A program made the position numbers and the translations under genes. A DNA stretch of 64,000 bases from Curvibacter soli (GTDB lineage: Bacteria > Pseudomonadota > Gammaproteobacteria > Burkholderiales > Burkholderiaceae_C): positions 18,197 to 82,196 of the forward strand of contig NZ_JARGEN010000021.1 in the NCBI RefSeq assembly GCF_029211125.1, in the 5' to 3' direction. Numbering within the stretch: the first letter of the stretch is position 1; each line of letters starts with the position of its first letter. The notes beneath the pieces were generated by a model that saw nothing but the letters and a program-made list of their open reading frames with translations, ran no database searches and was not told the origin of the DNA. This document shows, one piece after another, positions 1,622 through 17,352 of the stretch.

Positions 1622-1999
1622 GCCGCGCGCGCCTACCATCGCGTCGTGCACGGGAATCCACCAGAGATTGCTTTCTGACGTACCTGAATTTTCTGAGCTG
1701 CCTGCGCTGCAGCGAACCGTTGGCCCATCCCAACTCGCGCAGTTCTTCTTTTTTGAGCTGCCTGCACGGCAGTGAACTCAAAGGCATCGGCTGCCTGCGC
1801 GGCAGCGAACAGCTTGCAGAGTGCCAAGGTATTGGAGAAGACTTTCTGAGCTGCCTGCGCGGCAGCGAACCTTGCCGCAGCGCGGCGATTTCTCGGGTGA
1901 CTTTTCTGAGCTGCCTGCGCGGCAGCGAACCTTGCGCTCGATGTATGCCCGCGCAATCCGAATTTCTGAGCTGCCTGCGCGGCAGCGAACGTTTTTCAA

Positions 2000-2175
2000 C
2001 CTAAATCCGGCAGTTGAACCAACCGAAAAACTGAAAAAACCCAATATCCATGCGGGTTTCCAAAGACTTCGCGTGACTGCAGAGCAGTTCCAAATGGGTG
2101 AGTCTGGAAAGCATGGAAACTCAATGCGTGACAGGCACTTGCTCGAATTTTGGGGATTCAACTGCCGGAAATAGG
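2000..2175. mobile_element. 176-bp MITE-like element (family 1A) inserted in a CRISPR spacer
   Basis: The ends are near-perfect 19-bp inverted repeats. The left end is CCTAAATCCGGCAGTTGAA; the right end read inwards is CCTATTTCCGGCAGTTGAA. The direct repeat TTCAA flanks it at 1995-1999 and 2176-2180. Removing the element and one TTCAA leaves a spacer of exactly 32 nt between the repeats at 1963-1990 and 2204-2231. There is no room for a transposase, so it must be moved in trans. A nearly identical copy lies at 29525-29700. Confidence 0.93.
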
Positions 2176-2379
2176 TTCAAATGCTTGAGCGTAGGCACCG
2201 GAATTTCTGAGCTGCCTGCGCGGCAGCGAACAGACAGTAGAAGTTTTCGCTTGGGATGAAGATTTTCTGAGCTGCCTGCGCGGCAGCGAACTGCCCGTGC
2301 GGCAGCGAACTGCCCGTGCCGGAGGCCATGACCGCAGAGCATTTTCTGAGCTGCCTGCGCGGCAGCGAACTTGTCGTAT

Positions 2380-2622
2380 GAGGGACTTGCAGAATTCGGA
2401 TGAATTTTTTAAACGCGCCAACGTGCGCTCAAAATAGACTGCGACCCCTCCCCCTACGCTGAACATGAAAAACGCCTCAAAACGCACGAGATCGCCTCCA
2501 AATCAATTTGCCCAAAATGGCCTCTAAAAATTCTCGTCAAAATTCCTCAAATCTTAGAAATTTTGCTTAAATTTTAAGCAAATTTAGACGAATTTCGGCA
2601 AAAATAATTCTGCAAGTCCCTC
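2380..2622. mobile_element. 243-bp AT-rich MITE-like element (family 2) inserted in a CRISPR spacer
   Basis: It has perfect 17-bp terminal inverted repeats, GAGGGACTTGCAGAATT at 2380-2396 and its complement at 2606-2622. It is flanked by the direct repeat GTAT (2376-2379 and 2623-2626). Removing the element and one GTAT restores a 32-nt spacer between the repeats at 2343-2370 and 2650-2677. The interior is much more AT-rich than its surroundings, with short palindromes near 2555-2590 and no coding frame. Its ends differ from those of family 1, so a different transposase is implied. Confidence 0.9.
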
Positions 2623-5600
2623 GTATGTGTAGCCCATTGCCGCCTGCCATTTCTGAGCTGCCTGCGCGGCAGCGAACGTGCAGTTCACGGAGAAGTTCGG
2701 CACGCCGTGTTTCTGAGCTGCCTGCGCGGCAGCGAACGAACCGCGCGGTGCTCGGCACGGGCCGATAGATTTCTGAGCTGCCTGCGCGGCAGCGAACTGC
2801 ACGACACCCGAGAGAGCCACGTTCTCGGCTTTCTGAGCTGCCTGCGCGGCAGCGAACCGGGAGTTACGGTTATCGGACGTTCCTCTGTATTTCTGAGCTG
2901 CCTGCGCGGCAGCGAACACAACCGACACGACCCATGCCTTGCAGATAGATTTCTGAGCTGCCTGCGCGGCAGCGAACCGGGCCGTCGAGCCCAGCACGGC
3001 GTCCTGCAATTTCTGAGCTGCCTGCGCGGCAGCGAACATGGAGGTGTTGTGGAGCCATGCGCTGCCGCTTTTCTGAGCTGCCTGCGCGGCAGCGAACCAA
3101 ATGCAGGCCCGCCGGCAGAATCTGCGCTCTTTCTGAGCTGCCTGCGCGGCAGCGAACGCGGCAAAGCTGGCGCTGGCAACGCGCGGGAATTTCTGAGCTG
3201 CCTGCGCGGCAGCGAACGTGTTGCTGAGATGGAGACGCATCGGCATCGTTTTCTGAGCTGCCTGCGCGGCAGCGAACTAATCACTTGAGCTCGAGCTTTT
3301 TGAGGGACTTTTCTGAGCTGCCTGCGCGGCAGCGAACGGCAAACAGCCGCGCGGCGCCGGCAAGCCGGATTTCTGAGCTGCCTGCGCGGCAGCGAACGGC
3401 GGAGGCCGTCGCGTCCGCTGGACGAACAATTTCTGAGCTGCCTGCGCGGCAGCGAACGCTATTTATAGGGCTAAGGCAGGTGAGGCATGGTTTCTGAGCT
3501 GCCTGCGCGGCAGCGAACTCGTACTACAGCTTGGCCTAACAATGGCCCATTTTCTGAGCTGCCTGCGCGGCAGCGAACTGTGCGCTGGCTCTTGCTCACG
3601 GCCAGCACCATTTCTGAGCTGCCTGCGCGGCAGCGAACAAACGCCCTTTCCAGATGCAGAGGTCGAGAAATTTCTGAGCTGCCTGCGCGGCAGCGAACTA
3701 GCTGAAGAATCACCTGGTTGATGCTCCAGATTTCTGAGCTGCCTGCGCGGCAGCGAACGTGTTGCTGAGATGGAGACGCATCGGCATCGTTTTCTGAGCT
3801 GCCTGCGCGGCAGCGAACACCACGAGCTCGACGTCGTGCGGACGCCACCATTTCTGAGCTGCCTGCGCGGCAGCGAACAAATCAAAACAGTTGCGCGAGT
3901 AAGTGTCGGCTTTCTGAGCTGCCTGCGCGGCAGCGAACGGCTGATTGACGCGAACGTGCGCGGCCTTGTCTTTCTGAGCTGCCTGCGCGGCAGCGAACCG
4001 CTGGTGGTACGAGTGGCCCGAGACAAATGATTTCTGAGCTGCCTGCGCGGCAGCGAACACGGTGCTCCTTCTCCGATTCGTGTCCCCATTTTTCTGAGCT
4101 GCCTGCGCGGCAGCGAACCGTCTTCGGCGTCATGCGCACAGGCTTTGTGTTTTCTGAGCTGCCTGCGCGGCAGCGAACGTTCCTGCGCTCGGCCAAGTAA
4201 TGGCCTATCATTTCTGAGCTGCCTGCGCGGCAGCGAACGTACTCCAGCCACTCGGCGGAGCCTTGAACAATTTCTGAGCTGCCTGCGCGGCAGCGAACGT
4301 GATCAGCGCATCCGGGGTCTTGCGTCCACTTTTCTGAGCTGCCTGCGCGGCAGCGAACGCGGACAGTACGGAATGCGTATGGCCCGTGCTTTTCTGAGCT
4401 GCCTGCGCGGCAGCGAACTGGACCGTGGACTGGCTCACCCCCGCCTTCTTTTTCTGAGCTGCCTGCGCGGCAGCGAACTCTTCCAGGATGGAAAGGTGCG
4501 CGGTGTCCTTTTTCTGAGCTGCCTGCGCGGCAGCGAACCGGTGATGATGTCCTGCGACTCTTCGGCCGATTTTCTGAGCTGCCTGCGCGGCAGCGAACGT
4601 ATCCGTGACGCTGGACACATCGACCACAAATTTCTGAGCTGCCTGCGCGGCAGCGAACTTGACGACAGGGCCAGCAATGAGCGCGAGAAATTTCTGAGCT
4701 GCCTGCGCGGCAGCGAACACCACGCCGACCTCACGCAAAGCGTCGAACATTTTCTGAGCTGCCTGCGCGGCAGCGAACCATTGACATCTATCTCACGACG
4801 CAGGCCCCGCTTTCTGAGCTGCCTGCGCGGCAGCGAACTCGAGCTCGTGACGTCCGACCGCTCTCGACCTTTTCTGAGCTGCCTGCGCGGCAGCGAACGC
4901 CACGAGGCCGGCAGCGGGCGGACACCGCGATTTCTGAGCTGCCTGCGCGGCAGCGAACATGAAACGTTTGCTTTGCAGACTACAGGGCATTTCTGAGCTG
5001 CCTGCGCGGCAGCGAACAGCTTCACCCACGCAAATCAGCGACTGATCATTTTCTGAGCTGCCTGCGCGGCAGCGAACCATGTTCCTGACTCCTAAAAATG
5101 TTCCTGACATTTCTGAGCTGCCTGCGCGGCAGCGAACAATTGACAGTAATGTTCGTGCTCTTGCGGGTATTTCTGAGCTGCCTGCGCGGCAGCGAACAAT
5201 CCGTAGTAGCAGGGTTCTCATCGCAAGCATTTCTGAGCTGCCTGCGCGGCAGCGAACTCGATGGTCATTGCGAGTGCTTCAACGGCCCATTTCTGAGCTG
5301 CCTGCGCGGCAGCGAACTTCGGCGGTGAAGTCTTGCAGTTGCTTGCAATTTTCTGAGCTGCCTGCGCGGCAGCGAACAATTGCCCGCTCCTGTTGATTCT
5401 GCTCGATCTTTTCTGAGCTGCCTGCGCGGCAGCGAACGACTTCTGTAGCTTCGCGTTCACTGGCCAAACTTTCTGAGCTGCCTGCGCGGCAGCGAACTCG
5501 AACTCGTGACGTCCGACCGCTGCCGATCTTTTCTGAGCTGCCTGCGCGGCAGCGAACTGGCCGGCGGACGCCGCGAGGCCGGGGCAGCCTTTCTGAGCTG

Positions 5601-7900
5601 CCTGCGCGGCAGCGAACATGGCTCCCCGTCCCCTCTGCGTGTCCCCATTTTTCTGAGCTGCCTGCGCGGCAGCGAACTCGAGCTGGTGGCGTCGGTCTGT
5701 CGCCGATCTTTTCTGAGCTGCCTGCGCGGCAGCGAACGTCCGCCGTCGTCCTGGTCGGCGTCCCCTTGATTTCTGAGCTGCCTGCGCGGCAGCGAACCCG
5801 AAAGCGCCCCGAGCACCGGGAGCCTTCAACTTTCTGAGCTGCCTGCGCGGCAGCGAACAGCTCCACTTCCTCCGGGTCGAGCAGGAGATATTTCTGAGCT
5901 GCCTGCGCGGCAGCGAACAAGCCGCGCATCTTCGAGCGGTACTCCTGGCTTTTCTGAGCTGCCTGCGCGGCAGCGAACCTGGCGATCGTCAACCTCTGGA
6001 GCATCAACTATTTCTGAGCTGCCTGCGCGGCAGCGAACGCGGCTCTCATGGAAGTCGTTATCAAGGGAAATTTCTGAGCTGCCTGCGCGGCAGCGAACGA
6101 TCAACCAGCGCGGCAGTCTTGCCCGCGCCAGTTTCTGAGCTGCCTGCGCGGCAGCGAACGCCAACCCGATAGCAACGCCCCAGACGTCAGCTTTCTGAGC
6201 TGCCTGCGCGGCAGCGAACTCTTCGTGATCTTGGTATTCTTGGTCGCTGGTTTTCTGAGCTGCCTGCGCGGCAGCGAACTGGTTTCTCGTGCTCTTGTTG
6301 CGCTCGGGTTTTTTCTGAGCTGCCTGCGCGGCAGCGAACTTCCTTCAAGCTGCCCGCGAGTTGGTGCACCTTTTCTGAGCTGCCTGCGCGGCAGCGAACG
6401 CTCGACCTCAAGGGGACGCCGGCCAGGACGATTTCTGAGCTGCCTGCGCGGCAGCGAACTGTTTCGTCGCAGCCTGGTTGCGCTGGGTTTTTTTCTGAGC
6501 TGCCTGCGCGGCAGCGAACTTCGGCGGTGAAGTCTTGCAGTTGCTTGCAATTTTCTGAGCTGCCTGCGCGGCAGCGAACCGCCCGCGCTGCATCAAGATC
6601 AGAAGCAACTTTTTCTGAGCTGCCTGCGCGGCAGCGAACTCGAGCTGGTGGCGTCGGTCTGTCGCCGGCCTTTTCTGAGCTGCCTGCGCGGCAGCGAACC
6701 ACTCGGAGGAACTCTCGCAGCAGGCCCACGATTTCTGAGCTGCCTGCGCGGCAGCGAACATCTTCTGCGACACCGGCAACGAGCACGAAGATTTCTGAGC
6801 TGCCTGCGCGGCAGCGAACTTTCAAACATCATCCGCAGCAGACTCGCGTCATTTCTGAGCTGCCTGCGCGGCAGCGAACATTGCCGCGCGCAATGACTTG
6901 TTCGTTATCTGTTTCTGAGCTGCCTGCGCGGCAGCGAACCTGGCGCGCAGGCGCACGATCTTGATGTCGAGTTTCTGAGCTGCCTGCGCGGCAGCGAACG
7001 CGAACGCCAGCATGGCCAGCGGACGCCTCGATTTCTGAGCTGCCTGCGCGGCAGCGAACAAGTTTGTGGGGCTCGATGAAGCAGCACTGCATTTCTGAGC
7101 TGCCTGCGCGGCAGCGAACACAAACCCACGCCACGCCTTCATGCGCGTCGCTTTCTGAGCTGCCTGCGCGGCAGCGAACGCCAAATTTTTCCGTTGAGCG
7201 CTGCATGACTTTTTCTGAGCTGCCTGCGCGGCAGCGAACAGAGGAAGGAAGCTCTTCTTTCCCTTCTTCATTTTCTGAGCTGCCTGCGCGGCAGCGAACG
7301 ACGACATCCGAATCAGTCTTGCCAAGGACCATTTCTGAGCTGCCTGCGCGGCAGCGAACCTCCAGATGTGGCTGGACAATGAGCCCGATGTTTTCTGAGC
7401 TGCCTGCGCGGCAGCGAACGACAAGTTTCATGTCGTCAAGATGGCGAACAATTTCTGAGCTGCCTGCGCGGCAGCGAACACGAAATATCGTGCTGTCCAC
7501 GACGCGCATGAATTTCTGAGCTGCCTGCGCGGCAGCGAACTTGGAGCACAAGGATTGCCTGGCCATCGTCAATTTCTGAGCTGCCTGCGCGGCAGCGAAC
7601 GGGAAAATGTTGCAGATAAGTGCTGGCGGCCTTTTCTGAGCTGCCTGCGCGGCAGCGAACCAGAAGACATAGGACTGATAGCAAGCGCTGGTTTTCTGAG
7701 CTGCCTGCGCGGCAGCGAACCGTCTTCGGCGTCATGCGCACAGGCTTTGTGTTTTCTGAGCTGCCTGCGCGGCAGCGAACATCAGTGCCGAGCGCGAGCT
7801 GGCCTTTCGGGCTTTCTGAGCTGCCTGCGCGGCAGCGAACTTGAGCTCGTAGTGTTCGCCCGCCGTCGTCCTTTTCTGAGCTGCCTGCGCGGCAGCGAAC

Positions 7901-8029: not shown

Positions 8030-8596
8030 TCAAAACCAGGGTACGGTTGCGCCATGACTCAAGCCATAGCAGTTGAAGGAGCCGGCTTGGGGGCTAGCTT
8101 GTATCGGGACGTGTTCTACGAATAAGCAAAACCTCTGGCCGGTGGTGGCACTGTGCAGTTGCGTGAAAGGCAGGTTTGGCTGGCGTTGCGCGCTGTCGGG
8201 GATGGCGGCGGCAGCTTGCTCGGCAGTTTCGCCCTTGCGCAGCATGCGGCGGCGGCGCAGACGCTCCACGCTGGTCTTGAATTGGCGGCGTATCACGGCG
8301 CGGTGCAGGGCTCCGGTAGGGGCGGGGGACATGGCAGTCAGCGCGATGTGGTCGCGCATGCCTTTGAGCCAGTCTATGCCCATCAGGCGCGCCAGTGCTG
8401 CCTCACTGCTATGCAGGCGCAGCACGGTGCCAAGTGTGCGTGGGTGCTGCTGGTAGCGCGGAAAGCTCACCCCTATGTCGTTTGCCTGCAATTGCACCAG
8501 TACCTGGTGCAGCTTGGCATAGAGTGCGCTCAGCAGATGGGCATGGCTGAACTCCGGGTCTGGGAGCAGCGTGATGTCAATGTAATGCGTGGTCAT
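8030..8596 (-). CDS. cas6f: Type I-F crRNA endonuclease Cas6f (Csy4)
   Basis: This 188-aa enzyme cuts the array transcript at the 3' base of each repeat hairpin and stays bound to the crRNA as a Cascade subunit. The N-terminus THYIDITLLPDPEF and the histidine in AKLHQVLV (about residue 30) align with the ferredoxin fold and catalytic His29 of Pseudomonas Csy4. The arginine-rich helix (RLRRRRMLRKG) that grips the RNA stem follows, and the protein ends CYGLSHGATVPWF as the family does. ATG at 8596 is chosen because GAGAGG stands upstream; an in-frame GTG lies two codons earlier. It is the last gene of csy1-4, immediately before the leader. Confidence 0.96.
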   Translation of the reverse strand: MTTHYIDITLLPDPEFSHAHLLSALYAKLHQVLVQLQANDIGVSFPRYQQHPRTLGTVLRLHSSEAALARLMGIDWLKGMRDHIALTAMSPAPTGALHRAVIRRQFKTSVERLRRRRMLRKGETAEQAAAAIPDSAQRQPNLPFTQLHSATTGQRFCLFVEHVPIQASPQAGSFNCYGLSHGATVPWF

Positions 8597-8608
8597 GGGC
8601 ACTGCCTC

Positions 8609-9640
8609 TCAGCTTGCATCACCAAACACACCGCCGCGGATCAATATCGCCATCACGAAATGCTGTTGCTCCACAGGAGGGGGCTGGTCCTTGAGCAGCC
8701 AGTTGTCGAGCAGTGTGTAGAAGTCCAGCTTCTGCTTGGGCTGGCGGTAGGCCTTGCCTTGCGTGGTGACGGATCCGTACGGCTCCACGGCGATGGGGCC
8801 GAGGTCTTGCGCGCCTTCGTACCAAGTGTCAATGGTGCGCAGGGCGTTGCCGATTTTCTGCGAGTGGATGGCGGCGACTTCCTGCCCCTTGGGGCCGATC
8901 TGGTAGAGCGTCTTGCTCTTCTTGTCGCCGCGCCCTCGACCGAGGATCAACTCCTGCGATGGGAAAACTTCCTGCCCCGCGCCCATGCGGACGAAGGCGG
9001 TGATTTGCAGCAGCACATGGGCTTGGCCGGCCAAGCCTTCGGCAATAACGGTACCCAGCGATGCAACTTCACTATTGATCGCGCCTTGCGCACGCAGGTT
9101 GTGGGTCAGCGCATCAAAAGACCAGGATTTTTCCGTTCGCCCGTTTATCAGGCGCGCCACGTTCACCTGCGCGCTTTCGGCGCCCAGGCGGTTGCGCCAC
9201 AGGAACCGACCATTGGCCAGGTTGACGGCGTAGCGGTTGGTCAGCTCGCCAAAGCCGTGTTGCTGCACATAGGCTTGCACGGTGTGCTGCAGCTTGGCCT
9301 GGTATTCGGCGCTGTTGCAGGCCGATGGCGTGCCCGCGCCCGCCAGCACGCGCAGGGTGAATTGCACGCGCAGCGTGTCGGCATCAGCGGGTAGTGCGGC
9401 CACGTCCACCGTTTGCAGGTTGGGGTTTTCGATGTCGGCGTCGAGCTTGGCCGGGTCCTGGTCCTTGGTTTTCAGGCGGTTGCTGATCGTGCCGCGCACG
9501 GCCTTCTCGCGCACCTGGACTGGCGTCCAGGCGCTGGCGTCGGCCTGCGCGTCCCAGCGGCCGGCGTGGAAGACGGCGTCAGAGGGGTCGAGCTTGCGCT
9601 CGAAGGCGAGGACGGAGGCAGTCTTGAGGGTGTTCGACAT
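8609..9640 (-). CDS. csy3: Type I-F Cascade backbone protein Cas7f (Csy3)
   Basis: The product (343 aa) is the Cas7-type subunit that polymerises along the crRNA spacer, six copies per I-F complex. The N-terminus (SNTLKTASVLAFERKLDPSDAVF) and the segments WDAQADASAWTPVQVREK and SWSFDALTHNLRAQGAIN are characteristic of Csy3, and the length is normal. It lies 12 bp upstream of csy4. A 103-bp gap that includes a copy of the dispersed Comamonadaceae-type repeat separates it from csy2. Confidence 0.96.
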   Translation of the reverse strand: MSNTLKTASVLAFERKLDPSDAVFHAGRWDAQADASAWTPVQVREKAVRGTISNRLKTKDQDPAKLDADIENPNLQTVDVAALPADADTLRVQFTLRVLAGAGTPSACNSAEYQAKLQHTVQAYVQQHGFGELTNRYAVNLANGRFLWRNRLGAESAQVNVARLINGRTEKSWSFDALTHNLRAQGAINSEVASLGTVIAEGLAGQAHVLLQITAFVRMGAGQEVFPSQELILGRGRGDKKSKTLYQIGPKGQEVAAIHSQKIGNALRTIDTWYEGAQDLGPIAVEPYGSVTTQGKAYRQPKQKLDFYTLLDNWLLKDQPPPVEQQHFVMAILIRGGVFGDAS

Positions 9641-9743: not shown

Positions 9744-10811
9744 TCAGTCATAGGCATAGACATCGCTTTCGTCTTCATCCTCCCATTCGCCTGGGGCGTC
9801 AGGCGCTGCATCGGCGGCGTAGCCGCTGCGGCAGCGGTACAGGCCTTGGGCGGCGTCGGTTTCGGCATGCCACAGCAGTTGTTCCAGGCTGCGCAGGCGG
9901 TGGGGGCTGATCCACTCGCCCAGCGAATAGACCGATTCGACGAAGCGCAGCGGCGTGGCGGCGTCGCGGGCATTGGCCACGGCGCCGGCCGCATGTTGGC
10001 CCGACAGCGCGGCGTAGCCCACCGGAATGGGAACGATCCAGCCGCTGCCCCGTGGGCGCAAGGGGTCGTGCCAGCGCACCTTGCCGTCTGCGGCTTGAGG
10101 CTGGTCGGTCTGGGGACGCTCGGCCTCGTAGTTAAAGCGCGAGGCGTGCAGCCAGGCATCGAGCAGAGTGGCCTGCGGAGTGTGTTCGCGCAGCACGCGC
10201 AGCCGCTCGGCCAGCAGGTCGTCGCGCCCCACCAGCGCATAGCCGGGCAGCCATTGGCGGCGCCATTCGCGCAGCCGTGTGGCGCGTTGCTGCGTGTCAT
10301 CGGGCAGCACGGCAATCCAGGGGCGCACGCGCCTGCCGAGTGCTGCGCGCGTTGGCAACAGGCTACCGCCGGCCATGCGCATCTGCGCCAGCACGCGGCT
10401 TGCGTCATCGGCCCATTGCTGCAGGGTGTCGGGCGCGTCCTGCACTAGGCGGGGCAGCGCGCCGGGAGCGCGTTTTTCCGAAACGCTGAAGACCAGCGTG
10501 ATGTCAAGATGGATGCGCCCTTCCTCGACGATGGCGGCCGTGCTGCCGTCCTTGTCCACCGGGTTGCGGGTGAGGTTGAAGCTGTGCACATAGCCTTGCG
10601 TCGTCTGCTCCTGATAGTGGTGGCAGACCACGCCGACGCCATGCAAGTGCAAGGGGATGCCCGCCTGGTTCAGCTTGCGCTCCAGCGCCCACATCAGGCC
10701 GGTGAGGGCGGTGATGGCAGGGAAGCCGTGGGTGAGCGGGCTGGAGATGGCGTTGGCGTTCTGCACGCGCAGGTGGGGGAAGACCAGGATGGCCTGGGGG
10801 TGTTCGCTCAT
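9744..10811 (-). CDS. csy2: Type I-F Cascade subunit Cas5f (Csy2)
   Basis: The 355-aa product pairs with Cas8f to cap the 5' handle of the crRNA. The start segment AILVFPHLRVQNANAISSP and the later GVGVVCHHYQEQTTQGY and SFNLTRNPVDKDG match the Csy2 family. The ATG at 10811 overlaps the csy1 stop by 4 bp (ATGA), so the two are translationally coupled. The last residues are acidic (EWEDEDESDVYAYD). Confidence 0.95.
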   Translation of the reverse strand: MSEHPQAILVFPHLRVQNANAISSPLTHGFPAITALTGLMWALERKLNQAGIPLHLHGVGVVCHHYQEQTTQGYVHSFNLTRNPVDKDGSTAAIVEEGRIHLDITLVFSVSEKRAPGALPRLVQDAPDTLQQWADDASRVLAQMRMAGGSLLPTRAALGRRVRPWIAVLPDDTQQRATRLREWRRQWLPGYALVGRDDLLAERLRVLREHTPQATLLDAWLHASRFNYEAERPQTDQPQAADGKVRWHDPLRPRGSGWIVPIPVGYAALSGQHAAGAVANARDAATPLRFVESVYSLGEWISPHRLRSLEQLLWHAETDAAQGLYRCRSGYAADAAPDAPGEWEDEDESDVYAYD

Positions 10812-12121
10812 TGCGCAGCCTCCAGTTCCGCCTGCAGCACTTTTTTCCATTCACGCGCTTCAACTTCGCTCACGGGGAGCCCGGTCTTCCCGAGTTGCTG
10901 GTTCAGCCAGTTGGCAAAACGCTTGCCCACCTGCGCGGGCCAGTCCATCCATTGCCATTGGCTGGCAAACGCGCCTTCGCTCGGCAATGTGGCGCGCAAT
11001 GGGTCCAGCCACAGTTGCTCTTCTAGCGCTAGGCGGTCGAAGCGGTTTTCCGGATCGGTGCCGGGGCGCGTCCAGCCTGCCGGCATGGCTTGCTGCAACT
11101 CCCCGGCCATCGATACCAGTTCATCGAGCAGCATGTCGATGTAGATCACTCGGCGCTCGCGGGTTTTCAGATTCGGTTCGGGGTCGGATGCGAGGAACTC
11201 TCGCAGCCCGCGCACGGCCTTGCGCACATCGGGGCGGGCGATGAACAGCCGGTCGAACACCGATTCGGCATGCGCGGGCAAGCGCCGCGCGCTGACCGCC
11301 CACGCGGGCGGCAGCGATGACAGCAGGTAGTTCACGCCACCGCGTTCGCTGTTGAGCTGGCTGATGTTCTGCGGCTTCGTTCCACCCATCTTCTGCACGG
11401 CCAGATCGGGGTAGTCGTGGAGTACGCCGTCGTGCGCCTTGCGATCACGCCGAGCCTGGCGGGCGGCCTTGTTGGCTTCGTCGAAGCGATCTTCCTGAAT
11501 CTGCGCATGCACCGCGTGGGCCAGCGATGTGGCAAACAGCGGCGCCAGCAGTTCGTAATCGCCATCGGCGCAGGCATCGCTGCCTGTCAGCCAGTACAAC
11601 TGCTTGGCCCTTGTGTGCGAACTGGGGGGGGCAGCGCGCGGCTGCGTCAGGCCGACAAAGGCGTCGCGCAGCGATCGGGCCTGGGCGGGGTTATTGTGCA
11701 GGGCCTGAATGGCGGCTTCGTCCTCCGCTAGCAGTGCAGCCAGCAGGCTGCGGCCATCAAGCTCCAGCTTCAGGAATTTATAGACATCCAGCGCCCCGGC
11801 AGAGCCGACCACGTCGCCCGTGAACGCTGCGCCCAGCGCGTGGCTGCCCAGCACGCCGAGGCTGGGCAGACTGTTTGGCTCCACATACAGATTGGTGCCA
11901 CGTGCGTCGGGGTGGATGGGTTTGAGGGAGTGGGTGACGGCCTGGATTTGCGTCACGCGCCGTGCGGCATCGTCAATCCAGGCATCGAACTGGTGCTGTG
12001 CCAGTAACTCCGCGCGTTTGGGGTCGTCGTCCTTGAGCTTGTCGAGCTTGGCCTGCAGGCGTTCCTGGATGAAAACATCAATAGCAGACCGCCAGAACGC
12101 TGGGTTGGTGGTTGGCTGCAT
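10808..12121 (-). CDS. csy1: Type I-F Cascade large subunit Cas8f (Csy1)
   Basis: The 437-aa product reads the CC PAM and holds the crRNA 5' handle together with Cas5f. The N-terminus (FWRSAIDVFIQERLQAKLDKL) and internal segments such as GTNLYVEPNSLPSLGVLGSH match Csy1. ATG 12121 is chosen for its strong GGGAGG ribosome site; an in-frame start nine codons earlier has none. It is the first gene of csy1-4. Its predicted promoter (-35 ATGACA, 17 bp, -10 TATCAT on the minus strand) coincides exactly with the target of the mini-CRISPR guide described at 12172-12257. Confidence 0.95.
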   Translation of the reverse strand: MQPTTNPAFWRSAIDVFIQERLQAKLDKLKDDDPKRAELLAQHQFDAWIDDAARRVTQIQAVTHSLKPIHPDARGTNLYVEPNSLPSLGVLGSHALGAAFTGDVVGSAGALDVYKFLKLELDGRSLLAALLAEDEAAIQALHNNPAQARSLRDAFVGLTQPRAAPPSSHTRAKQLYWLTGSDACADGDYELLAPLFATSLAHAVHAQIQEDRFDEANKAARQARRDRKAHDGVLHDYPDLAVQKMGGTKPQNISQLNSERGGVNYLLSSLPPAWAVSARRLPAHAESVFDRLFIARPDVRKAVRGLREFLASDPEPNLKTRERRVIYIDMLLDELVSMAGELQQAMPAGWTRPGTDPENRFDRLALEEQLWLDPLRATLPSEGAFASQWQWMDWPAQVGKRFANWLNQQLGKTGLPVSEVEAREWKKVLQAELEAAQ

Positions 12122-12146
12122 ACATCCTCCCTTAAAAATGTGAACC

Positions 12147-12178
12147 ATGATACTTGGAATCTTATATCATGTCATCCT
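12147..12178 (-). promoter_or_regulatory. csy1-4 promoter and overlapping predicted Cascade operator
   Basis: On the minus strand ATGACA (one change from TTGACA) is followed by 17 bp and TATCAT (one change from TATAAT). An ATG with a strong ribosome site lies downstream at 12121. On the + strand the same 32 bp form a protospacer preceded by CC (12145-12146), the I-F PAM. Its first 16 bases ATGATACTTGGAATCT match the mini-CRISPR guide ATGATCCTTGGGATCT except at positions 6 and 12. Bound Cascade would cover both promoter hexamers. The match is read directly; the promoter and the repression are inferred. Confidence 0.8.
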
Positions 12179-12257
12179 GCCGTGGAGGTAGCTCAGCAAA
12201 TGATCCTTGGGATCTGTCTTCCGTGTTCCTTTTTCTGCCGCATAGGCAGATTTTTGT
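12172..12257 (+). ncRNA. Mini-CRISPR (CreR/CreA-like) guide RNA between csy1 and brnT
   Basis: Two degenerate repeats flank a 30-nt pseudo-spacer. Repeat 1 (12172-12199) keeps the Csy4 stem, CTGCC (12177-12181) pairing with GGTAG (12187-12191) through one G-U. Its handle is CTCAGCAA against CTCAGAAA in the array. Repeat 2 (12230-12257) keeps a perfect CTGCC/GGCAG stem with loop GCATA but no handle. A guide RNA needs only a 5' handle from the first repeat and a 3' hairpin from the second, so the conserved parts are the required ones. The guide begins ATGATCCTTGGG at 12200 and targets the csy1 promoter 20 bp away. CreA and CreR RNAs of this form are known in other type I systems. Transcription is unproven: a TATCAT at 12165 on the + strand could be a -10, but the -35 is weak. 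Confidence 0.8.
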
Positions 12258-12258
12258 A

Positions 12259-12286
12259 TTGACATAGTGAATACGAGAATTAATAT
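12259..12286 (+). promoter_or_regulatory. Consensus-like promoter overlapping the brnT start codon
   Basis: TTGACA (12259-12264), 16 bp, then TAATAT (12281-12286) is close to a full sigma70 consensus. The brnT ATG (12285) lies inside the -10. A transcript started here would begin near 12293 and lack both candidate start codons. Either the motif is not used for brnT or brnT is translated from a longer transcript that begins upstream, for instance through the mini-CRISPR. Confidence 0.4.
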
Positions 12287-12587
12287 GAACTCTGCAGATG
12301 TTCACTACGAAGTCAACGGCGACCTGTTCGTCTGGAGCCGTGTCAAGGCCCAACTGAACTGGCGCAAGCATGGCGTGCGCTTCGAGGAGGTGGCCACCGT
12401 ATTCGGCGACCCGTACTTCGTACTCACGGATGCGTCGCGCAACGACGAGGCGCGCGATGCGGCAATTGGTTTCGATGTCCATGCGCGGCTGCTATTCGTG
12501 GTGCACGTCGAGATTGAGGACACGTGTATCCGAATCATTTCTGCGCGGCGAGCGGAACCCCGCGAAGAGGCTCTTTATGCTGACTGA
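12285..12587 (+). CDS. brnT: BrnT-family ribonuclease toxin
   Basis: The product is 100 aa from ATG 12285, or 106 aa from GTG 12267. The pattern FVWSRVKAQLNWRKHGVRFEEVATVF, then IGFD, then LLFVVHVE, then RIISARRAEPREE is the BrnT signature, a RelE-fold mRNA-cleaving toxin. It overlaps brnA by 11 bp, so toxin and antitoxin are co-translated in the usual toxin-first order. The pair interrupts the cas operon on the opposite strand, between csy1 (divergent) and cas2-3 (convergent). Which start is used is uncertain. By family it would be neutralised by the BrnA encoded next to it. Confidence 0.88.
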   Translation: MNSADVHYEVNGDLFVWSRVKAQLNWRKHGVRFEEVATVFGDPYFVLTDASRNDEARDAAIGFDVHARLLFVVHVEIEDTCIRIISARRAEPREEALYAD

Positions 12588-12861
12588 CCGTTTGAAGACC
12601 CGTTTGACGAAGGATCGACCGATGACGTCGATCACGCTGCGCATTCCCGTGGACGTGGTCGAGTCGATGAAGACCATCGCGCCGCAGCGCGGCTTCTCTG
12701 GCTATCAATCCCTGCTCAAGTCCTACCTGAGCGAGGGGCTGCGCCGTGACGAGCAGCAATTTGCCGCCGCGACGCATGCGCGCCTGATCGAGGCGCTCAA
12801 GCGCCACGGGGTGCCGGTAGAGGTGATCGAGCAGGCAGAGCGCGACGTGGCGGCGGCTTGA
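12577..12861 (+). CDS. brnA: BrnA-like ribbon-helix-helix antitoxin
   Basis: The 94-aa product has the core TSITLRIPVDVVESMKTIA, then GYQSLLKSYLSEGLRRDE, which is the strand-helix-helix arrangement of BrnA/CopG-type antitoxins. These bind the toxin and repress their own promoter. The ATG lies 11 bp before the brnT stop. The gene ends one base before the cas2-3 stop (12863), so the two units are packed tail to tail. The C-terminal half (FAAATHARLIEALKRHGVPVEVIEQAERDVAAA) is helical and longer than in minimal BrnA proteins. Confidence 0.8.
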   Translation: MLTDRLKTRLTKDRPMTSITLRIPVDVVESMKTIAPQRGFSGYQSLLKSYLSEGLRRDEQQFAAATHARLIEALKRHGVPVEVIEQAERDVAAA

Positions 12862-12862
12862 C

Positions 12863-15800
12863 TCAGCGTGTAGGAGTGAAGCCTAGCGCTTCATGAAATA
12901 GCCAGCCATCCCTGCTTTCAGGCAGGCTGGCGGTCGCATACCGCCCGGCGCATGCGCTCAGTGATTGCTCCTGACTCTGCGCCAGCCTCATCAGCTCCTG
13001 CAACAAATCAATCTGCGCCCACGGCGTAAGGTTGGCGTTCGTGTTGAGCTTCAGCCGCACGGCGTGGCGCTGGTTTTCGTCCACGCACACGTAGAGTTTT
13101 TCTCCGCGCCGGTTGCCGTCATCCACGCGGTGCAGCAGCAGGCGCGCTTCATCCTCATCCGGCAAAAATGCCACGTCCACACGTGGTTGCCGGTCATGGC
13201 GGAAGCGCTGGAACTGCGGCAGCAGGCCGGTGAGCCACAGGTGTTCGGGGCTGGCCCAGTGCAGGCTTGCGGCACGGGTCACGGACGTCGTGCCGTGGCT
13301 GTCTGGGGGGCGGGGCAGCATGGCGTCGTGCATACGGGCGTGTTCCAGGTCGGCGAGGTGCTGGCCGGGGTTGAAGTGTGCCTTGGCGACGGCGATGCGT
13401 GCCCGGGCATCCACTGGCCACGCCGATGCGCCGTGGGTATGCTTGGCAAGCAGTTCCTGCAACTGGTGCGAGCGCAGGTGGAAGTGACGCGCGCTGTCGC
13501 GTTGGTCTTGCGTCTGGTCCATCTCGAAACCCGGCTTGCAGAAGGCGGCGCCGCCGGGCTTTTCGTAGGCTCGCAAGTTGCTGTCCATCACCGTCATATT
13601 CACGCCGGCAACCGCGCCGGGGCGGTGGCGGCGCACGCGGCCTGCCAATTGAATGAGCGAGCGCATCGATGACGGCTCGACCACGGCCCAGTCGTAATCG
13701 TGGTCGCGGCCCACTTCGGTAACGGGTGAGCCAAGCACGATGAACAACTGGTTGGACTGCGGACTGGCGTCGAGTAGTGCCCGAATCGCGGGTTGCTGTA
13801 GGGCCGCATCGCTGCCATCTGCCGCCGGGCGGCGGTTGAGCACCGTGTCCAGTTGCCGCTCGATGGCCGAGCGCGCCAGCAGCGGAAACTGCGAGTGGTA
13901 GACGCACAGGTGCACGCGCACGTCGGCTGCGGGTGCGCCTTGCGTGTACATCGCCAGTGCCACGTCGAACAGTGGCCCGATGTTGGCCATGCGGATCAGG
14001 CCGAAGCTCACGCGCTTTCCGCTGCCGGGGTCGATGGTGTGGTTCTGCGGCATCTGGTGCAGGCGCCATGCCTGCTCCAGCGCCAGACGGGCAAAGTCGG
14101 CGCGGCGCTCAGCTTTATCCATGCCATGCCATTTGTCGGGTAAAGCGGCGATCTGCGCGCGGCGGCGCACTTCGGCCTTGGCGAGTTGGGCCACGCGCTT
14201 TTGCACGAAGCCTTCATGGGTGGCGCGAAAGTCCGAGCCATCGGCGCAGTCGGCGGCGCTCTGGTGGAACTCGTCCATCCACAGGCAGCAGATGTTGACC
14301 CGCTCGCCGGGCCGCTCGCTGCGATGCCGTTGGAACACGTCGCGGCCTGCGCGGTAAGCCAGGAACAGCCCTTCCACCAGCGCGGGCGGCAGGGTTGCCG
14401 ACGACAGCAGCACGCGGCTACCGAGCAGTCCGGCCCAATGCACCAGCCGCGTGAGCGCAGGCAGGTCTGCCATGTCGAAATCGTCCGGCTCATCGAGCAC
14501 CAGATCGCCCGTGAGCAGGCGCAGCATGGGCGCGATCTGGCGGCCTCCGCGCAGGCTTTCAGTGGCGGGCGTCAGGTGATCGACAGTGCAGACCAACAAC
14601 GGCGCGGCCAGCAGGCGGCGCGCCTGTGCGTCGCCCATCAGGCGTTGCAGCAGCGGGTGCTGGTCGTTGCCCTCGAACAGCACCTGCCCGCCTTCGTCGA
14701 GCAGCGCCTGGCGCGATGCGGAGCCGGTGGCCTCAGCCTCGTGCTCCCAATGCTCGAACAGCGCGCGGCTGGCAGCGGCGCCGACCTGGATGGCGAGTTG
14801 CTCTTCGTTCAGGCCCAACTCGTTTTGATATACGCGCCCCATTTGCAGTGTCAACGTGCGCAGGCCCACAGCAAACGCGCAGCGCAGGCCCGTGGCCGGG
14901 TCGGCCAGCGCGTTCATGACGCGCGCGTTGCCCAGCGTCTTGCCGCAGCCCGTGGATGCCATGTTGACGATGAAGGTGCCCTGGCTGCCAGCGTGCTGGC
15001 GCACGCTGGCAGCCAGATCGGCGGCCTTGTCCTGCCACTGAAAGCGCGCATCGCGGCTGCGCTTTTTCAGCGCCTTGTGGTTTTGCAGCGCCGGCAGGCT
15101 GCGCGCCAGCGTGGGCAGCGAGCGCGCGACCAGTGTGGCGTGGGCCTGCACGCCCAGCAGGTGTTCATCCAGGGTTTGATGAAAAATTGGCTTTTCGCTC
15201 TTATCTGGCGGGCGCTGATAGCTATCGTTTTTGATGGTGTTGGCGTAGAGCGGATAGCCGGCATTGACGTAAGGCTTGCGCTGCCCATCGTCCCGGACGC
15301 TGGAGTAGTGGTGGTCGGCCAGCATCAGGCACAGGCGGGTCACGTGCATGGCGAACGGATCGTGCAGCACGGCGCCCTGCGCAGTGGATTCCAGCAGCTT
15401 GCGTGCATAGCGGGCGGCCTGCTTTCGCCACGGCACGGTCGTCACCGGCAGCCCATGGGGAAAGCGCCAATGGGACTGTACCGTGACGTTGTCCGCAGAC
15501 TCCTCGCGCGGCTCGTTCCAGTCGGCGCTGAGGCGTTGCAGCAGCCCTTGCAGATCGGCAAGGTTCACGAAAGCGGGGTGCGCCCCGAAGCTCCGCCAGC
15601 GGCTGTGGGGCAGGTCGATGTCCGCATCGCTGCTGCCATCCTTGTGCAGCACCGGCATGCAGGGCAAGCGATGGTGCGTGAGCACCAGCCAGGCCACGGC
15701 CTGCGCCAGCGGCGGCATGGCGGTAAAGGGCAGGTGGTAGCGGGCCTGCGGCTCGTCGATGCCGTCGCGCAGCAAGCGGCCGTTGGAACAGTCCAGCCAT

Positions 15801-16357
15801 TGCGCCTCGAAAGCGGTTGCATCCATGGCTTCATCGGCCAGCCGTTGCAGCCAGCCCGCATCGTCCTCGCCGCCCACGAAGGCCTGGAACAGCCGTACCG
15901 ACACCCATTCGTGCCGGTAGTGGTTGCGCTGGCGCAGGCTGGGGTTTTTCAGGCGGTTCTGGAAGGCGGCCGTCGCCTTGCCCAGGTCGTGCAGCAGCGC
16001 GGCAAGGGCGCCCAGCGCCGTCATCAGCGGCAGGTGGTGCCAGGCGCTTTCGTCGCCGGCGCGCAGCACGTTGCTGGCCGTGGTGTTGGTGGGCGTCGCG
16101 CCCTCGGCGTTGAACTGGCGGCCATCGCCCACCACCCACAGCAGCTCAGTGTGGTCCTTGGCGCGTATCCAGTGGCAGGCCACGGCGGTGTTCTTGCGGG
16201 CGGTCTGGCGCAGCAGCTTGCGCACGGTGTCCAGCCCGGCCTGGGTGATGGGCGTCTGCCAGGTGCGGTCGCCGCAGCGCTCGGCGAACTGGTCGAGGAT
16301 GCGGCGCGTTTCGGTCAGCGCGCGCTTGCTGCATTGGGAGACGAACAGGACGTTCAA
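12863..16357 (-). CDS. cas3: Type I-F Cas2-Cas3 fusion helicase-nuclease
   Basis: The 1164-aa I-F fusion works in both interference and adaptation. Residues 1 to about 95 form the Cas2 domain (NVLFVSQCSKRALTETRRILDQF). An HD nuclease motif HDLGK lies at about 123-127. Helicase motif I STGCGKT is at about 468-474, motif II DEPD at about 622-625, and motif III SAT at about 653-655. The start is a TTG at 16357 overlapping the cas1 stop by 4 bp (TTGA). This gives the exact Cas2 N-terminus of the family; the in-frame extension upstream does not resemble it. Residues about 374-392 are encoded by a copy of the dispersed repeat. It needs its own promoter or the cas1 promoter, because brnTA separates it from csy1. 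Confidence 0.95.
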   Translation of the reverse strand: MNVLFVSQCSKRALTETRRILDQFAERCGDRTWQTPITQAGLDTVRKLLRQTARKNTAVACHWIRAKDHTELLWVVGDGRQFNAEGATPTNTTASNVLRAGDESAWHHLPLMTALGALAALLHDLGKATAAFQNRLKNPSLRQRNHYRHEWVSVRLFQAFVGGEDDAGWLQRLADEAMDATAFEAQWLDCSNGRLLRDGIDEPQARYHLPFTAMPPLAQAVAWLVLTHHRLPCMPVLHKDGSSDADIDLPHSRWRSFGAHPAFVNLADLQGLLQRLSADWNEPREESADNVTVQSHWRFPHGLPVTTVPWRKQAARYARKLLESTAQGAVLHDPFAMHVTRLCLMLADHHYSSVRDDGQRKPYVNAGYPLYANTIKNDSYQRPPDKSEKPIFHQTLDEHLLGVQAHATLVARSLPTLARSLPALQNHKALKKRSRDARFQWQDKAADLAASVRQHAGSQGTFIVNMASTGCGKTLGNARVMNALADPATGLRCAFAVGLRTLTLQMGRVYQNELGLNEEQLAIQVGAAASRALFEHWEHEAEATGSASRQALLDEGGQVLFEGNDQHPLLQRLMGDAQARRLLAAPLLVCTVDHLTPATESLRGGRQIAPMLRLLTGDLVLDEPDDFDMADLPALTRLVHWAGLLGSRVLLSSATLPPALVEGLFLAYRAGRDVFQRHRSERPGERVNICCLWMDEFHQSAADCADGSDFRATHEGFVQKRVAQLAKAEVRRRAQIAALPDKWHGMDKAERRADFARLALEQAWRLHQMPQNHTIDPGSGKRVSFGLIRMANIGPLFDVALAMYTQGAPAADVRVHLCVYHSQFPLLARSAIERQLDTVLNRRPAADGSDAALQQPAIRALLDASPQSNQLFIVLGSPVTEVGRDHDYDWAVVEPSSMRSLIQLAGRVRRHRPGAVAGVNMTVMDSNLRAYEKPGGAAFCKPGFEMDQTQDQRDSARHFHLRSHQLQELLAKHTHGASAWPVDARARIAVAKAHFNPGQHLADLEHARMHDAMLPRPPDSHGTTSVTRAASLHWASPEHLWLTGLLPQFQRFRHDRQPRVDVAFLPDEDEARLLLHRVDDGNRRGEKLYVCVDENQRHAVRLKLNTNANLTPWAQIDLLQELMRLAQSQEQSLSACAGRYATASLPESRDGWLFHEALGFTPTR
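15180..15235. repeat. Dispersed repeat copy inside cas2-3
   Basis: Read on the minus strand it shows AAAACGATAGCTATCAGCGC, then ATAAGAGC and AGCCAATTTTT, matching the dispersed repeat found between genes elsewhere in the window. It stays in frame and encodes about 19 residues between the HD and helicase parts of Cas3. Confidence 0.55.
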
Positions 16358-17352
16358 GCCACGCTCCCGGGCGCTGGGTGATTCGCCATGCGCGCGGTGT
16401 CCAGGGCGATGCGCTTGAGCGTGTCGATGATGAAGTCCAGCGATTCGCTGCGCGTGAGCGCCTCGATGCACTGGTGGCGAAACTGCTGCTCGTCGTCGCC
16501 GCGCATGGCCGACAGGAACGCCTGCGGCAGGATGGCGGCGTCTTTGACCAGATCGGCCGCGTCGAACACCAGCCCGCCGCGCCGCGTCTTGCCGTGCAGC
16601 ACCGCCAGCCCGTGCGGCAGGCCCAGCACCCAGGTGGCCGTTGCGCCCAAGCCGTAGGCCAGGTAGTTGCCGTGGTCGAGAAAACGGTTGGCCGGGTCAG
16701 TGCCCGCGCCGCGCTTGGCGCGGGTGAATTCGCCATAGCCTGTGGCATCCACGGCGAGTTTGAACAACGCCTTGGTCAGCCGGGCCTCGTCGGTCAGCAG
16801 CGCGGTCACATCGGGCGCGTTGGCGATCAGCGGGGTGAACTGCGCCGTGAGCGCCTGCAGCCGCGCCACATCGACTGCAAAGCCCGCTTCGCGCAAGCCG
16901 CGGGTGTTCCATTCGGCCAGCAGGCGCTGCATGCGCCAGGTCTGCAACTGTTTGGCGGCGTGCAGGCGCAGCTCGTCGTCGAACCAGAACCGCGCCCAGG
17001 CCTGAAGGTACTCGGTGGGGCGGTATTCGCTCTGCGGTGCGAGCCAGGCTACGTCCACATCGACCTCATTCGCGCTGAACAGCGGTGTGCCGCCACCACC
17101 GCAAAAGCCCACCAGCACGCCCGCTTTGGAGAGTTCGCGCATGGCGGCCTGGGTGATGGAGGTGCCCGTGCCCAGCAGGATGCTGGTCGTGTTGGCGATG
17201 GGAATATTCCAGTAAAGGCTGCGCTTGCCCGCATCGGTTACGTATTCGACCCTGCCGCCGCTGACCAGGACGCGGCAATGCTCCAGGTAGTACAGGTTGG
17301 CGCGCTTGGAATGGAGGATGGCTTTGAGGTCGGATGCGGCAATGTCGTCCAT
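16354..17352 (-). CDS. cas1: Type I-F spacer integrase Cas1
   Basis: The 332-aa integrase inserts new spacers at the leader end together with Cas2-3. The N-terminus (DLKAILHSKRANLYYLEHCRVLV) and SLYWNIPIANTTSILLGTGTS match I-F Cas1. The metal ligands are apparent as the Glu in LLTDEARLTKALF, the His in GLPHGLAVLHG, and the Asp in GLVFDAADLVKD. It is the first gene of the cas1-cas2-3 unit and ends overlapping the TTG start of cas2-3. Only 46 bp separate it from the next gene upstream, which reads the same way, so it may have its own short promoter or be read through. Confidence 0.96.
   Translation of the reverse strand: MDDIAASDLKAILHSKRANLYYLEHCRVLVSGGRVEYVTDAGKRSLYWNIPIANTTSILLGTGTSITQAAMRELSKAGVLVGFCGGGGTPLFSANEVDVDVAWLAPQSEYRPTEYLQAWARFWFDDELRLHAAKQLQTWRMQRLLAEWNTRGLREAGFAVDVARLQALTAQFTPLIANAPDVTALLTDEARLTKALFKLAVDATGYGEFTRAKRGAGTDPANRFLDHGNYLAYGLGATATWVLGLPHGLAVLHGKTRRGGLVFDAADLVKDAAILPQAFLSAMRGDDEQQFRHQCIEALTRSESLDFIIDTLKRIALDTARMANHPAPGSVA

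Follow-up and report, generated by a model that had tools for sequence, protein, structure and literature searches.

The 741-bp gap between csy1 and cas2-3 (12122-12862) of a type I-F CRISPR-Cas locus in Curvibacter soli contains a mini-CRISPR that is very probably a type I-F CreR; its guide is predicted to steer the cell's own Csy complex (Cascade) onto the csy1 promoter, likely repressing csy1-csy4. What is observed is a pair of degenerate repeats, a guide-target match interrupted by mismatches at positions 6 and 12, a CC flank, promoter-like hexamers at the target and, in relatives, the same layout built from different sequences. The mini-CRISPR and its match to the promoter region were first described in an earlier note on this DNA, and both are confirmed here. 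All coordinates are those of the window, the whole 64,000-nucleotide stretch that was analysed.

The mini-CRISPR and its match upstream of csy1

The gene order of the locus is the array, csy4-csy3-csy2-csy1, the gap with brnT and brnA, and then cas2-3 and cas1, with all but the brn genes on the minus strand. The features are:

1697..7900, minus strand: I-F CRISPR array of 98 repeat-like units, some of them partial, with its leader end at 7900
8030..8602, minus strand: csy4 (cas6f), whose product would be expected to process R1 and R2
8609..9640, minus strand: csy3 (cas7f)
9744..10850, minus strand: csy2 (cas5f)
10808..12121, minus strand: csy1 (cas8f), the predicted regulated gene (Pfam Cas_Csy1, E 9.8e-135)
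12145..12146, plus strand: CC, PAM of the target, the dinucleotide enriched over others in relatives
12147..12178, plus strand: protospacer in the predicted csy1 promoter, with 12147-12162 matching the guide save at positions 6 and 12
12147..12152, minus strand: predicted csy1 -10 box TATCAT (promoter scan), with GG, complementary to the PAM, immediately after it
12170..12175, minus strand: predicted csy1 -35 box ATGACA (promoter scan)
12172..12199, plus strand: R1 (psi-R1), a degenerate I-F repeat with a Csy4-type 5-bp stem
12200..12229, plus strand: guide (psi-spacer) of 30 nt
12230..12257, plus strand: R2, a degenerate repeat
12285..12587, plus strand: brnT toxin gene (Pfam BrnT_toxin, E 1.7e-23), in the same direction as the mini-CRISPR
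12577..12861, plus strand: brnA-type CopG antitoxin gene (Pfam CopG_antitoxin, E 1.2e-5; 26.4 bits, short of the cut-off of 28)
12863..16471, minus strand: cas2-3
16354..17352, minus strand: cas1

The start of csy1 is most likely at 12121 rather than at the longest-ORF start, 12148, given the Shine-Dalgarno-like AGGGAGG just upstream (about 12126-12132). In the array, 88 of 97 intervals are 32 nt; its trailer end (1697-2650) is decayed, containing partial repeats as well as gaps 213 and 279 nt long, and three spacers occur more than once. Outside the array, the window has no match to an array spacer at 13/15 or better.

As the earlier note had it, both repeats keep the Csy4 stem and the first keeps a near-normal 8-nt handle. 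Compared with the locus repeat GTTCGCTGCCGCGCAGGCAGCTCAGAAA, R1 is identical at 19 of 28 positions and R2 at 16 of 28. The R1 stem has 5 bp, one of them a G-U pair, and its 5' handle (12192-12199, CTCAGCAA) agrees with the normal CTCAGAAA at 7 of 8 bases; the R2 stem, CTGCC-GCATA-GGCAG (12235-12249), is intact, and its handle has been lost, with ATTTTTG in its place. The G-U pair and the lost handle count against the CreR reading. R2 with its T run is terminator-like (one such site found by the scan, 0.1 expected), and R2 also gives the sole Rfam match, a weak one to CRISPR-DR4 that scores 17.3 bits where the cut-off is 35. The element has the arrangement expected of a CreR, a single guide enclosed by two degenerate copies of the repeat of its own I-F system.

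The guide begins ATGATCCTTGGGATCT and the target at 12147-12162 reads ATGATACTTGGAATCT; they agree at positions 1-5, 7-11 and 13-16 and differ at 6 (C/A), 12 (G/A) and 17-20. The described 16-nt match, failing only at 6 and 12 and then ending, is therefore borne out, as is the CC at 12145-12146. The spacing of twenty bp given earlier holds for the interval that separates the 32-bp protospacer from the guide (21 bp); the two start 53 bp apart. The promoter scan returned the very hexamers named before, ATGACA-17-TATCAT facing csy1 (12175-12147, minus strand), among two promoter-like sites where 0.4 were expected: read in reverse complement, the first six bases of the protospacer give the predicted -10 box, and the -35 box also falls inside the 32 bp. 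PAM-flanked partial complementarity of 14 of 16 bases is thus present, at a csy1 promoter that is itself predicted.

Chance is a poor explanation for this match. Of 200,000 shuffled guides, one scored 14/15 at some CC site among the 16 in 12122-12300; the pattern CCATGATNCTTGGNATCT occurs without mismatch nowhere else in the 3.36-Mb genome, and the reversed pattern has no site within three mismatches genome-wide. Two other sites match with one mismatch. As second targets both were taken as chance: one precedes a REP-type-transposase-like ORF (by eye), and the other was judged from its sequence only.

Guides and targets in relatives

Upstream regions of csy1 were assembled from named genomes (22 loci), plasmids (11 of 16 matches taken), overlapping genome samples with a csy1 match in 10 of 199, 20 of 399, 32 of 369 and 42 of 399 genomes, and 10 further stretches; a few of the csy1 matches in the last two samples yielded no locus, and some were left out. 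Together with the window this gave 136 sequences with a csy1 match, of which 15 were dropped as identical or with less than 250 nt upstream, leaving 121 distinct regions; six loci with no csy1 match were excluded. Distances to csy1 and gap lengths are approximate, being taken from extended tblastn matches. No Csy1 relative was found on viral contigs, and nothing similar to the csy1/cas2-3 gap in plasmid DNA.

Scanning 900 nt upstream of csy1 on the opposite strand, with a fixed handle/stem filter and a threshold of 13/17 at a flanked site, found a repeat-preceded guide matching a CC-flanked site in 45 of the 121 regions (window included) and none in the other 76; as strand, range and filter were fixed, 45 is a lower bound. 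The same scan with the 15 other flanks gave AC 1, CA 2, CT 1, TG 1 and zero for the remaining 11, and shuffled guides gave 0.3 loci per replicate. Mismatches over the 45 loci fall in a sharp pattern: 0-1 at each of positions 1-5, 36 at position 6, 1-4 at 7-11, 35 at 12, 1-7 at 13-17, 33 at 18, and 22-37 beyond 18. With 6, 12 and 18 omitted, 43 loci show no more than one mismatch over the 15 positions that remain; the other five phases give 2-5. Weaker matches fall below the threshold in L003, L005 and L016 (11/15 each) and L024 (12/15), and one in L019 is seen by eye only.

Each guide fits its own target and not those of other loci: own matches average 14.2/15, pairings between loci whose targets are dissimilar average 5.1/15, and none of the 1960 pairings of that kind reaches 13. 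In L004 the guide ACGATgCGTGGgTTTTT meets the target ACGATaCGTGGaTTTTT, and in L009 ATAATcCAAGGcATTCTt meets ATAATaCAAGGaATTCTg; L022, L133 and L137 have similar pairs, with one or zero further mismatches by position 16. The conservation check proposed in the earlier note thus came out positive, the seed co-varying with the target while the mismatches at 6 and 12 and the CC flank persist. The guide bases at 6, 12 and 18 appear to drift freely, since across 37 distinct targets they match 9, 9 and 9 times where independent columns would give 7.8, 8.1 and 9.1. Between the close relatives L037 and L108, positions 1-16 differ only at target position 6 and guide position 12. In L037 the first 16 guide bases repeat exactly the stretch that leads from the PAM into R1, hinting at local duplication as the origin of such guides.

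Conservation among the nearest relatives is mixed, which counts against the CreR reading: the guide-target match is kept, although only 8 of the 17 other distinct loci with Csy1 at least 60% identical pass the threshold. Five of these (L004, L009, L037, L108 and L133) have the PAM no more than 60 nt from csy1, and three (L023, L055 and L112) have it further off; L003 and L005, in the same identity class, have an element at the same place at the sub-threshold score given above. The remaining seven lack a qualifying element: L002, L008 and L114 despite gaps of at least 380 nt (L008 partly N), and L006, L007, L038 and L115 with csy1 gaps under 60 nt.

The targets appear in at least two placements, many at promoter-like sites, as judged from the hexamers at or near their seeds. 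Twelve of the 45 loci (window included) have the PAM no more than 60 nt from csy1, and in 10 of these 12 a -10-like hexamer stands directly at the seed (background 3.5%). The other 33 targets lie 60-545 nt upstream; among them a -35-like TTGACA (5 or 6 of 6) starts 0-4 nt past the PAM in 13 (background 3.2%), a -10-like hexamer is at the seed in 14 (background 4.1%), and most have room for a creT-sized gene before csy1. One far locus, L027 (LoGeW2-3), is apparently among the Acinetobacter strains of the published I-F CreTA work (PMC10097628). In four loci of Vreelandella/Halomonas and Comamonas composti (L012, L013, L017, L023) a short ORF with a Shine-Dalgarno-like sequence is seen by eye between target and csy1; these ORFs are candidate creT genes in a CreTA-like layout.

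A further regularity concerns the DNA at the skipped positions. Of the 37 distinct targets, 28 carry an A at position 6 and 25 carry one at position 12, regardless of the guide base, compared with about 20% A at other target positions from 2 to 17 (Fisher p 6e-5 for the 8 distinct targets of the near group, 1e-13 for the 29 of the far group); the guides themselves have C or G in 22 of 37 at each position. Position 1 is also A-rich (26/37), but at that position the guide agrees with the target, and the bias is found in array spacers too (35/87). The excess at 6 and 12 is absent from array spacers (29/174 in the window array; 403/2056 in 1028 pooled spacers, slightly under other positions). In the near group it is partly explained by position 6 often being the first T of the -10 box; in the far group no comparable reason was seen. 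It is conceivable, though we hold it only tentatively, that I-F targets carry a two-part code, 15 paired bases (1-5, 7-11, 13-17) plus a guide-independent A in the DNA at 6 and 12. If so, Csy/Cascade would sense, or need for R-loop opening, a DNA base that its guide ignores, and natural promoter-parking guides would follow that rule.

The neighbourhood on the other side of the element is also recurrent. A type II toxin-antitoxin operon on the mini-CRISPR strand shares the gap in 8 of the 12 near-csy1 loci, HigBA in seven (with HigB in two pieces in L058) and BrnTA in just one, the window. Such operons recur in the cas2-3/csy1 gap (12285-12861 in the window; L004, L005, L009, L037, L058, L108, L133, L137), and the same slot elsewhere holds a HicB-like gene in eight Vreelandella/Halomonas loci and an acetyltransferase/DUF1778 pair in Methylomonas. 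L002 and L003 have HigA matches and no HigB, with no repeat found in L002, and in Vitreoscilla L025 this gap contains a VapC-family gene together with an XRE regulator. BrnT was considered as a special partner and set aside: with a match in 52 of 100 related genomes, BrnT is common enough that finding it here carries little information by itself. As for the idea that read-through from creR drives brnTA, the sole plus-strand promoter-like site ahead of brnT, at 12259-12286, extends over the start codon of that gene, and the HigBA relatives appear by eye to have an operator of their own after R2.

Other readings and the predicted circuit

The guide of the window is a near-palindrome, which counts against the CreR reading and opens another: that the match represents a pair of operators, GATNCTTGGNATC, for a dimeric protein that binds DNA, such as the BrnA antitoxin, the repeats being incidental. 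The guide holds a perfect inverted repeat, GATCC-TTG-GGATC, in which 6 and 12 are palindrome partners, so that an operator pair could mismatch there too, and the window has just two copies of GATNCTTGGNATC, at 12149 and 12202. Yet 10% of shuffled window guides are equally palindromic, and among the 12 near-csy1 loci only L137 (4%) and L133 (0.2%) fall below 5% on this measure; the different guides ACGATnCGTGGnTTTTT and ATAATnCAAGGnATTCT still match their targets and follow the 6/12 rule next to a toxin-antitoxin operon of another type, HigBA, and a CC flank would mean nothing to an operator. The clustering of mismatches at 6, 12 and 18, with 0 of 1960 cross-fits, makes this reading very unlikely.

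A decayed, functionless CRISPR relic, with the match a leftover duplication, would account for the degenerate repeats and for the L037 guide, which duplicates the 16 nt before and into R1; it is hard to reconcile with 15 paired positions kept while 6, 12 and 18 drift, across 37 distinct targets, or with a kept CC flank, and we regard it as highly improbable. Equally little weight falls on the element being the creA antitoxin of a CreTA pair, its guide repressing a toxin RNA gene rather than csy1. The genomic slot and anatomy are those of the Acinetobacter I-F CreTA as far as described in PMC10097628, and in 33 of the 45 loci the target is far enough upstream of csy1 to leave, in most, room for another gene; at the window locus, by contrast, the 23 nt between PAM and csy1 start leave no room for a creT, the predicted promoter runs into the Shine-Dalgarno-like sequence of csy1, and the target appears to control no creT.

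Under the CreR reading, the mini-CRISPR RNA would be transcribed on the plus strand, cut by Csy4 after 12191 and after 12249, and loaded into Csy1-4, where 14 of the first 16 guide bases could pair with the csy1 promoter, 6 and 12 being skipped. The R-loop should be too short to license Cas2-3, and the complex would cover the -10 to -35 interval and block RNA polymerase; repression would be lifted when free Cascade is lost, whether through an anti-CRISPR, competing crRNAs or a low level of Cas proteins. No convincing promoter for creR emerged in the window, a further point against the CreR reading. The window scan returned no plus-strand site of at least 9/12 before R1, and the best candidate (8/12) is equalled by 19% of shuffles; in 4 of the 12 near-csy1 loci (L037, L099, L108, L137) the candidate is equalled by at most 5%. 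Such a promoter, between csy1 and R1, might be covered as well, as the target sits there.

Binding without Cas3 cleavage, as the earlier note had expected, is the outcome to be anticipated by analogy with PMC7296934, PMC10097628 and PMC8501985, as far as these sources were covered. It is backed by the I-F1 biochemistry described in PMC7296934, where shortened R-loops or a 6-bp PAM-distal mismatch gave no Cas2/3 engagement, and for csy1 it is a prediction. The same source describes binding that weakens with guide shortening and protection lost at truncations of at least 18 nt, so that 14-17 pairs may bind weakly, a point against the CreR reading. For archaeal CreA, PMC8501985 describes positions 6 and 12 as freely changeable.

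Were the circuit to work as predicted, the level of I-F immunity would be tied to the amount of free effector, and anti-CRISPR attack would become a signal for more Cas protein. The survey of relatives amounts to a natural experiment on I-F guide pairing, in which guide positions 6, 12 and 18 are free to vary and matches extend no further than about 17, and its pairing rules can inform the design of promoter-silencing I-F guides.

Relation to known regulatory mini-CRISPRs

Shmakov et al. (2023, NAR gkad495) reportedly predicted mini-arrays partially complementary to cas8 promoters and tested one I-F1 mini-array as a regulatory guide. CreR RNAs have been published for types I-B, I-E and V-A (as cited in PMC13131331), the source being Liu et al. 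2023 in Cell Host Microbe as known through PMC13131331, PMC12948488 and PMC12737573. With these and an I-F CreA in print, the element belongs to an already known type of regulation, and the idea of autorepression is less new than first supposed. Possibly new are the adjacency of guide and HigBA or BrnTA, in 8 of 12 near-csy1 guides, and the A bias at the skipped target positions; in the literature surveyed, which comprised listings and some passages, we recognised no description of the bias or of the position-by-position drift.

The Racr elements, or solitary repeat units (PMC10651486), are likewise repeat-like RNAs engaging the host CRISPR complex, as proposed here, according to the part of that source covered; they are solitary repeats on viruses, whereas the element has two repeats inside a host cas locus and a promoter-matching guide. 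Closer is the I-F CreA of Acinetobacter sp. WCHA45, which in the available part of PMC10097628 lies in the cas3-csy1 gap and represses creT transcription in a Csy-dependent manner, with 17 paired guide bases and positions 6, 11 and 18 unpaired. It shares with our element the type I-F system, the gap, two degenerate repeats, the CC PAM and an unpaired position 6; its guide controls the creT toxin RNA, whereas the target here precedes csy1 itself. With CreR, as the sources above present it, the element has in common its nature as a mini-CRISPR close to cas genes, a guide of limited complementarity to a cas promoter, and predicted autorepression that is guided by the effector and relieved by anti-CRISPRs; unlike the published examples it would be of type I-F, with its seed on the predicted csy1 -10 box and its place between csy1 and a toxin-antitoxin operon.
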